Positions 1 through 44,987 of a DNA stretch of 64,000 bases are shown in pieces. Numbering within the stretch: position 1 is the first letter of the stretch; each line of letters begins with the position of its first letter. The notes under the pieces are model-generated. The model had not been told where the DNA came from. It did no database searches and saw nothing but the letters and a program-made list of their open reading frames with translations. The translations under genes and the position numbers were made by a program. The DNA is taken from NCBI GenBank assembly GCA_015491895.1, contig WFVA01000063.1, positions 1 through 64,000 on the forward strand, given 5' to 3'. This stretch comes from Albidovulum sp. (GTDB lineage Bacteria; Pseudomonadota; Alphaproteobacteria; Rhodobacterales; Rhodobacteraceae).

Positions 1-40
1 CCGTCGCCCTGTAAAGCGGTGACAGATCAAAACCACGCAT
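1..40 (-). CDS. Small heat shock protein Hsp20/IbpA, N-terminus only (cut by window start)
   Basis: Only the first 13 codons are inside the window (MRGFDLSPLYRAT). This opening is typical of alphaproteobacterial IbpA/Hsp20 proteins, which continue with a phenylalanine/arginine-rich segment before the alpha-crystallin domain. The family holds denatured proteins in a refoldable state in the cytoplasm. The ATG at 40 has a strong Shine-Dalgarno (GAGGAGG, positions 49-55). Upstream are a sigma-32-like promoter and an RNA that appears to hide this ribosome binding site, both supporting a heat shock gene. The alpha-crystallin domain itself is not visible, so the family call rests on the N-terminal motif and the regulatory context. 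Confidence 0.75.
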   Translation of the reverse strand, partial: MRGFDLSPLYRAT

Positions 41-138
41 TTTCCAATCCTCCTCTCTTGAGCGATTGTCACTGTTGCCCTCCCATGAGGGACGGGCCTT
101 TCACATTGGCCGGATCCGCTTTTGCAGCCTCCGGCCAT
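41..138 (-). promoter_or_regulatory. ROSE-like RNA thermometer in the hsp20 leader
   Basis: The leader between the predicted transcription start (about 138) and the ATG at 40 can fold into successive hairpins. A first stem GGCCGG/CCGGCC lies near 115-138, a second CCCUC/GAGGG near 76-95, and a last one at 45-68. The last stem pairs CAAUC with GAUUG and places UCGCU (61-65) opposite the Shine-Dalgarno GAGGAGG (49-55). U(U/C)GCU opposite the ribosome binding site, with a G-G mismatch in the middle, is the signature of ROSE elements, known from alphaproteobacterial small heat shock genes. Folding was done by eye; no energy was computed. Confidence 0.6.
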
Positions 139-144
139 CTGGTG

Positions 145-174
145 ATATGGGTTTGCAATGGCGCGGTTTCAAGG
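145..174 (-). promoter_or_regulatory. Sigma-32 (RpoH)-type promoter of hsp20
   Basis: Read on the minus strand, CCTTGAA (168-174) is followed after 16 bases by CCCATAT (145-151). This matches the RpoH consensus CTTGAA - 13 to 16 bases - CCCATnT. Its position about 100 bases before the hsp20 start fits a heat shock gene with a long regulatory leader. Confidence 0.6.
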
Positions 175-254
175 CCCGCCATGCCACTTGAGGCCTCGTT
201 TTCACTGGCCTTCCCGTCCGCGCTCCGGTGCCGTGGCCTTCAGGCTGAACGCGC

Positions 255-1070
255 TTACGGGCGCATGAACTTGGCGCCGCCGCTGCTGCGGGTCACGGGA
301 TTGCCGAGACGGCGCACGACGGGCAGGCCATTCGTCACCGCAGCTGCTTCCTCGAGGCTTTTCATGAGGGTTTCGATCTCCCGTTCGACAACCGCCGCAA
401 GCGCCACCTTCTTGCTCCCGAGCTGCGCCTTGGCCGAGATCACCGAGACGACATGCGGGCGGCCGTCCTTCTCCACGAAGACGGGCGCGCCGGAAGAGCC
501 GAAATCCACATCGCAGGAGAGCATCAGCGTGCCGGACTGGCGCGCCAGCACATGGCAGCGCTCCTGCAGGCTCGGGGATTGCGCGCGGTCGCGCGCATAG
601 GAAACCACCTCCACCGGATCCCACTTTCCCGGCCTCTCGGCGAGGTCGAACGGTTTGATCGCCGTGTTGCGGATGGGGCGGACGAGGCGCAACAGCGCAA
701 TATCCTTCTGCACGAGGGAAACGGGCTGGTGCGGATCATAGACATATTCGGGCAGGATCGCCGAGCTCAGCACCCGCGCCTGCGCCCTTGCCCGCCCGTT
801 GCGCCAGCCGGCCAGGAATTCGATCCTCGAGGCCGGGTAGCGCTTGCCGGTTTCCATGTCGAAGAGGCAATGGGCAGCCGTCAGCACGATATCGGGCGCG
901 ATCAGGGCACCGGTGCACATGGCCTCGTCATTGATGTTGAGCCTCCCCACGGCTTCCCAGCCCCGGCTGTCGGCGCCGGTGATCAGCATCCTGAGCGGGC
1001 TGTCGCCCTCGGCGCGCAGCCCTCCGGCCATGGCAAGCAGCATGGAAACACAGATCAGGAAAAGCCGCAT
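255..1070 (-). CDS. Secreted trypsin-like serine protease
   Basis: A 271-residue protein with a Sec signal peptide (MRLFLICVSMLLAMAGGLRA), so it acts in the periplasm or outside the cell. The chymotrypsin-fold catalytic triad is complete: His67 in LTAAHC, Asp123 in KDIALLRL, and Ser193 in GSSGAP (the usual GDSGGP with two substitutions). Cysteines 52/68 and 172/186 sit where trypsin-fold disulfides form. The start at 1070 is chosen because it begins the signal peptide and follows GGAGGGG; an ATG 20 codons upstream would bury the signal. It lies 90 bases behind glcF on the same strand with its own ribosome binding site, so co-transcription is possible. The substrate is unknown. Confidence 0.85.
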   Translation of the reverse strand: MRLFLICVSMLLAMAGGLRAEGDSPLRMLITGADSRGWEAVGRLNINDEAMCTGALIAPDIVLTAAHCLFDMETGKRYPASRIEFLAGWRNGRARAQARVLSSAILPEYVYDPHQPVSLVQKDIALLRLVRPIRNTAIKPFDLAERPGKWDPVEVVSYARDRAQSPSLQERCHVLARQSGTLMLSCDVDFGSSGAPVFVEKDGRPHVVSVISAKAQLGSKKVALAAVVEREIETLMKSLEEAAAVTNGLPVVRRLGNPVTRSSGGAKFMRP

Positions 1071-1160
1071 TACCCCTCCGCGATTCTTCTCTCGGCCCGA
1101 ACGGCCGGGCCGGAAAAGGATGCAATTCATCGCGGTATATATGCAACCCTTGTGGCAGGA

Positions 1161-43278: not shown

Positions 43279-44987
<1,709 letters not shown>

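Follow-up and report, generated by a model that had tools for sequence, protein, structure and literature searches.

The hsp20 gene at the start of the window, by which we mean the whole 64,000-nucleotide stretch of DNA that was analysed, is very probably under double heat control, from a sigma-32 promoter and from a ROSE-like RNA thermometer in its leader. This is supported by the sequence, the predicted structure, its conservation and covariation, the promoter match, the presence of an RpoH gene and the identity of the product. Melting of the hairpin, a translational switch and dependence on sigma-32 would be expected by analogy with the known ROSE family, as described in the available parts of PMC3669281 and PMC4166951. 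In the proposed mechanism, heat would lead to more active RpoH (sigma-32) and to a transcription start about 98 bases upstream of hsp20. At growth temperature, the mRNA would be folded into three hairpins, and UCGCU and its flanks in the third would pair with the Shine-Dalgarno sequence and block ribosomes. Upon heating, this third hairpin, weakened by its bulged G, would loosen and translation would begin.

The window starts at base 1 of contig C63, in a draft genome of 166 contigs, and hsp20 is therefore cut by the contig end after 13 codons (positions 1-40, minus strand, ATG at 38-40; MRGFDLSPLYRAT). A complete copy, encoding a 175-amino-acid Hsp20, lies on a second contig of the same genome (G000), C67, whose last 743 bases (75574-76316) overlap window positions 1-742 end to end with 90.6% identity. 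The C67 protein scored 68.3 bits against PF00011, over the cut-off, and is 52% identical to E. coli IbpA; against the NCBIfam IbpA equivalog it scored 159 bits, below that model's cut-off of 212. Since the C67 copy matches PF00011 and E. coli IbpA, the gene downstream of the leader is, by its sequence, an IbpA-like small heat-shock gene, as had been claimed. The location upstream of a small heat-shock gene, which is one of the marks of a ROSE element, is established through the C67 copy, the window copy itself being truncated by the contig end. The names of the 80 best Hsp20 relatives are, as we take them, those of Rhodobacterales or of nothing closer than Alphaproteobacteria, which fits the original placement of this gene in the Rhodobacterales. 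All coordinates of the original prediction are correct on the minus strand and needed no correction.

C67 ends, and the window begins, with hsp20 and a serine protease gene; the latter precedes hsp20. In the window, this second gene (255-1130, minus strand), which we take from its sequence to encode a trypsin-like serine protease, had no NCBIfam match at E 0.001; it adjoins hsp20 in all four searched genomes of the genus. The hsp20/protease unit is present in one copy each in genomes G002 and G003, both drafts. The overlap between C67 and C63 and the shared gene pair fit a tandem duplication split during assembly or an assembly bubble from two strains.

Folding of the predicted 5' leader (41-138, minus strand; about 98 nt, with the transcription start placed from the -10 box) with RNAfold gave three hairpins at -44.1 kcal/mol (z = -4.29), and none of 200 shuffled sequences was equally stable. 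Hairpin 1 (107-137, minus strand) has an internal GG/A loop in the window, as it does in the C67 leader, whereas most relatives have a single bulged G. Hairpin 2 (77-97, minus strand) has the form GCCC-G-UCCC...GGGAGGGC, with a bulged G, and is supported by the predicted fold and by covariation. Hairpin 3 (45-68, minus strand; CAAUCGCUCAAGAGAGGAGGAUUG), the ribosome-site hairpin CAAUC-G-CUC...GAG-GAUUG, is supported by these and by its pairing register. In its predicted form, CAAUC pairs with GAUUG and CUC with GAG, the G of the ROSE motif UCGCU (61-65, minus strand) is bulged, and the Shine-Dalgarno sequence GAGGAGG (49-55, minus strand) is partly covered by pairing with UCGCU and its flanks. 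This bears out the predicted closing hairpin, in which UCGCU faces the Shine-Dalgarno sequence after two further stems.

Several features expected of a ROSE element are found in this fold. The available text of PMC10474464 gives ROSE-type leaders a length of 60 to over 100 nt and two to four stem-loops, ranges that include the about 98 nt and three stems seen here. The 3' proximal hairpin is predicted to hold U(U/C)GCU in imperfect pairing with the Shine-Dalgarno sequence. The bulged G within the motif helix appears in the predicted window fold and in the pairing register of 110 leaders. GC-rich sequence folds readily, and the hairpins might be put down to chance pairing in a GC-rich leader. 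The z-score of -4.29, the 0/200 shuffles, the held-out model and the covariation described below refute this explanation, to which we assign practically no probability.

Conservation was assessed with 112 hsp20 upstream regions, the window included. Two duplicates (L004 and L077) were dropped before counting, which left 110 distinct leaders (the window, L002 and L005-L113 without L077). The motif UYGCU was found at most 45 nt from the start codon in 110/110. Base pairs were counted with the leaders anchored at two points only, UYGCU and the AGGA (or AGG) nearest upstream of the ATG; 17 of the 110 have more than one possible AGGA, and the last one was used. The five core pairs of hairpin 3 are each kept in 107 to 110 of the 110 leaders, and 105 keep the pair just outside them. 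Taken together, the three outer pairs are paired in 74.5% of cases in register 0, compared to 19-39% in eight slid registers. When the partners were shuffled between sequences, 64% (sd 1.6%) paired and none of 2000 shuffles reached 74.5%. Such shuffles keep the relatedness of the sequences and, therefore, the register control weighs more.

Covariation was measured on a smaller set. RNAalifold on a plain MAFFT alignment of 37 leaders (A1) gave 11 pairs only, as loops of unequal length were misaligned, and the model was therefore based on 19 leaders whose loops are equal in length. This choice favours clean structure, and its checks are the held-out test below and the anchored count on all 110 leaders. 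In the model alignment, both partners have changed in 7 of the 16 pairs, so that compensatory change is found in conserved pairs, with one of five covariation measures not above shuffles. The covariation score of the 19 leaders was above 500/500 shuffles and all six slides; the measure that did not exceed the shuffles was the number of further pair types, which 328 of the 500 reached.

The covariance model, R1, derives from hairpins 2 and 3 of these 19 leaders, with coding bases excluded and with no leader from a genome listed under the window's genus. It matched the window with 29.4 bits (E 1.9e-7, window scope). Across the genome the window comes from, where scoring covered 150 of the 800 first-look candidates, the top two matches were the C67 copy of the leader (E 4.1e-6) and the window leader (E 8.4e-6). 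A third match in this genome (E 0.01) was rejected as it falls inside a coding region that we take to be that of ATP synthase. With held-out leaders, R1 found 89/91 at E 10 and 85/91 at E 0.01; L027 and L031 were missed even at E 10. Across 150 genomes of the family, the window's own included, 134 had a match at E 0.01 and 110 at 1e-4. Among 144 genomes of the class, 27 had a match at E 0.01, most of them outside the family, and the weak ones are at noise level. A Paracoccus hsp20 leader scored 39.7 bits.

R1 also recognized a proven thermometer, the E. coli K-12 ibpA ROSE element (29.2 bits, E 5.7e-8). The Bradyrhizobium leader gave a partial match (E 0.37) and the Sinorhizobium leader no match at E 10. 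Covariance-model homology to a proven element was therefore found for E. coli ibpA, but not for the two rhizobial leaders. The Rfam models ROSE, ROSE_2 and ROSE_3 had no match at gathering score in the window, in any of 20 relative loci or in the Paracoccus leader, and the controls were above threshold (E. coli 100.4, Sinorhizobium 59.4 and Bradyrhizobium 55.4 bits). The best score of these ROSE models in the window was that of ROSE_2, which aligned to the right place with 14.6 bits (gathering score 65). Under a permissive limit, the 20 relatives gave 15 matches, of which 6, in 6/20 loci, were sub-threshold ROSE-family matches at the leader, a weak but consistent sign. The covariance-model check proposed along with the original prediction thus came out divided: the Rfam models stay below gathering, but the clade model R1 matches, and it matches the E. 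coli element as well, though not the rhizobial ones. Judged by these scores, the window leader is a ROSE relative beyond the reach of present Rfam models. At gathering score, Rfam 15 detects 0/22 tested loci of this group (the window, 20 relatives and Paracoccus), a gap that a Rhodobacterales ROSE model would close. Taken with the comparison of 110 leaders and the controls (E. coli ibpA and the Bradyrhizobium and Sinorhizobium hsp20 leaders), the held-out performance of R1 supports the reading of the leader as ROSE-like.

The Rfam search of the window also returned 5_ureB_sRNA at 43431-43718 (minus strand), with 123.9 bits against a gathering score of 40. This match may reflect only the conservation of a urease coding region.

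Upstream of the leader, a sigma-32-type promoter is recognized by its pattern and by its conservation in the leaders. It has the -35 box CCTTGAA (168-174, minus strand) and the -10 box CCCATAT (145-151, minus strand), the latter near the E. coli consensus. Compared with the sigma-32 consensus NNCTTGAA-N13-18-CNCCATAT, as quoted in the available part of PMC3669281, the window promoter has a spacer of 15 and one mismatch, at the first C of the -10 octamer, the consensus being that of E. coli. The 64 kb window has a single match to CTTGAA-N14-20-CCCATAT, and none of 100 shuffles has one. CTTGAA starts 133 bases upstream, and the -10 box lies 105-111 bases from the A of the ATG, so that the distance of 100 bases originally given for the promoter is right for the -10 box. 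Allowing a spacer of 15-19 and at most 2 mismatches in 11 positions, CTTGA/CCATAT was found in 102/110 upstream regions (2.5% when shuffled); with at most 1 mismatch in 11, it was found in 77/110 (0.14% when shuffled). This comparison of 110 distinct leaders supports the predicted sigma-32 promoter with CCTTGAA and CCCATAT. In the 102 promoter-positive regions, the -35 box begins 115-136 nt upstream of the ATG, and the leader is thus just long enough for three hairpins. The genome has one RpoH-family match over the curated cut-off. Together these data support a sigma-32-type promoter for the window hsp20, and its dependence on RpoH would be expected from published work on Pseudomonas and other bacteria.

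Such strong conservation of the promoter would also suit an explanation in which hsp20 is heat-controlled by sigma-32 only and the hairpins are general features of mRNA stability or transcription. Predicted melting points the same way, as ViennaRNA shows little of it between 25 and 50 C: pairing in the window's hairpin 3 alone goes from 0.94 to 0.90. The leader of E. coli ibpA, a proven thermometer, is also shallow in this prediction (0.93 to 0.78) and, therefore, the ViennaRNA melting neither supports nor refutes a thermometer. Against control by sigma-32 only stand the presence of UYGCU in 110/110 leaders, with its pairing register against the Shine-Dalgarno sequence kept, and the recognition by R1 of the E. 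coli element, itself with shallow predicted melting. We consider this explanation very improbable.

The predicted fold depends on how much of the coding region is included. With 23 coding bases added to the window leader, the best predicted fold pairs GUGACA with codons 6-8 and has no hairpin 3, and the Shine-Dalgarno sequence is paired at only 0.64 to 0.56 (ViennaRNA). Hairpin 3 returns in the prediction when 20 coding bases are added. GUGACA, which the alternative fold with codons 6-8 requires, is absent at that place in the C67 leader.

The thermometer reading places the switch in hairpin 3, and hairpins 1 and 2 are conserved though away from the ribosome site. The role of such hairpins is called "not fully understood" in the available text of PMC3669281. 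One explanation would be that the leader chiefly serves to dock Hsp20 itself. As with E. coli IbpA, free Hsp20 would repress its own translation, and aggregates would titrate Hsp20 away, so that temperature would act through protein aggregation besides, or instead of, RNA melting; this is compatible with a thermometer. According to the accessible part of PMC10474464, E. coli IbpA attaches to the leader of its own mRNA and, through this 5' UTR, represses its translation, which needs R93 and positive charge at R97 and K98; R in place of K98 is tolerated, and a possible extension to alpha-proteobacteria is suggested by the authors. The C67 Hsp20 has the residues of this autorepression, with R, R and R aligned at R93, R97 and K98 and Y at the aromatic position, Y34. 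The pattern R-xxx-RR/RK/KR was found in 109/109 relative proteins scanned (the truncated window protein was left out, and residue 34 was not counted). These residues may, however, be kept for chaperone function, and the window's own hsp20 ends before them. In addition, Pseudomonas UTRs give temperature-dependent ribosome binding in vitro, and in these UTRs hairpin II alone suffices for thermoregulation (PMC3669281, in the part available). We regard a leader that serves mainly as a docking site as unlikely, with perhaps a quarter of the weight; self-repression by Hsp20 may, by analogy with IbpA, be a further layer of control. Conservation of hairpins 1 and 2 and of the arginine by which IbpA binds RNA makes it possible to test concretely whether Hsp20 represses itself outside the gamma-proteobacteria.

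Hairpins 1 and 2 share a structural feature with the motif hairpin. Helices with a 5' bulged G and 7 or more pairs were found in 104/110 second-hairpin regions and 91/110 first-hairpin regions (7.4% and 7.1% when shuffled). When any bulge, on either side, or none was allowed, the best helix had a single 5' bulged G in 102/110 second hairpins and 86/110 first hairpins; in control stretches further upstream, this was so in 7/108, two of the 110 regions being absent as too short. In the third hairpin, the bulged G comes with its motif, and the bulged G of the motif hairpin is what PMC11342760 describes in the text available. The E. coli ibpA leader has the bulged-G module in hairpins 1 and 2 too. 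It is conceivable, though doubtful, that the leader repeats one module three times, each copy made of a helix, a 5' bulged G, a short helix and a loop; only the last copy would be the ribosome-site switch, and the first two would dock Hsp20. If true, one leader would sense both temperature, by melting, and chaperone load, by Hsp20 binding, across a bacterial family.

A second class of hsp20 genes was also examined, made up of one in the window's own genome (contig C119, L003) and 20 genes (L140-L159) hand-picked from a longer list. Their leaders are shorter, with UYGCU against AGG in 21/21. A first hairpin with a bulged G and 7 or more pairs was present in 17/21 (6.9% when shuffled) and a sigma-32-like promoter in 20/21, a count made without a shuffle control. 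The hsp20 on contig C8, read by eye, had no ROSE-like leader of this sort.

Sigma-32 and ROSE double control has been shown for Pseudomonas putida ibpA (PMC3669281, available part), and Waldminghaus 2005, as cited in the accessible portions of PMC4166951 and PMC3669281, is given as the source of more than 40 candidate ROSE elements from alpha- and gamma-proteobacteria. The original prediction hinted that two layers of heat control in such a gene would be new. The two control layers are supported as a reading, but the hint of novelty was too strong, as Nautella sp. R11 and Pseudomonas putida are already in print. Our results suggest that two-level heat control of small heat-shock genes, as it is known in gamma-proteobacteria, extends widely through this family (R1 match in 134/150 genomes at E 0.01).

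Among the known systems, the window leader is like ROSE_2 (RF01832, E. coli ibpA) in having UCGCU against the Shine-Dalgarno sequence, bulged-G hairpins and an IbpA-type gene, and the E. coli hairpin CCUGUCC...GGAAGG is a further likeness. It differs from ROSE_2 in its divergent sequence (14.6 bits vs. the gathering score of 65) and in the longer outer helix of the third hairpin. With the rhizobial ROSE (RF00435) it shares a bulged-G hairpin 1 before CC...GG (Bradyrhizobium and the Rfam consensus), a UUGCUC...GGAGGA hairpin and an hsp20 gene, whereas the middle hairpin of the Rfam model is longer; two Rhodobacterales loci scored 28.9-29.8 bits against RF00435, below its gathering score of 45. 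A further likeness is to ibpA and hspD of Nautella sp. R11, small heat-shock genes of the Roseobacter clade whose ROSE-like leaders the accessible part of PMC3230580 reports briefly, without an analysis of structure or conservation. The Pseudomonas ibpA thermometers also combine a sigma-32 promoter with U(U/C)GCU, and there the double control was shown by experiment (PMC3669281, available part). These short thermometers have two hairpins, in contrast to the three in the window, and the second hsp20 class looks similar to them in this respect. The window leader is a good, correct example of the known ROSE kind.
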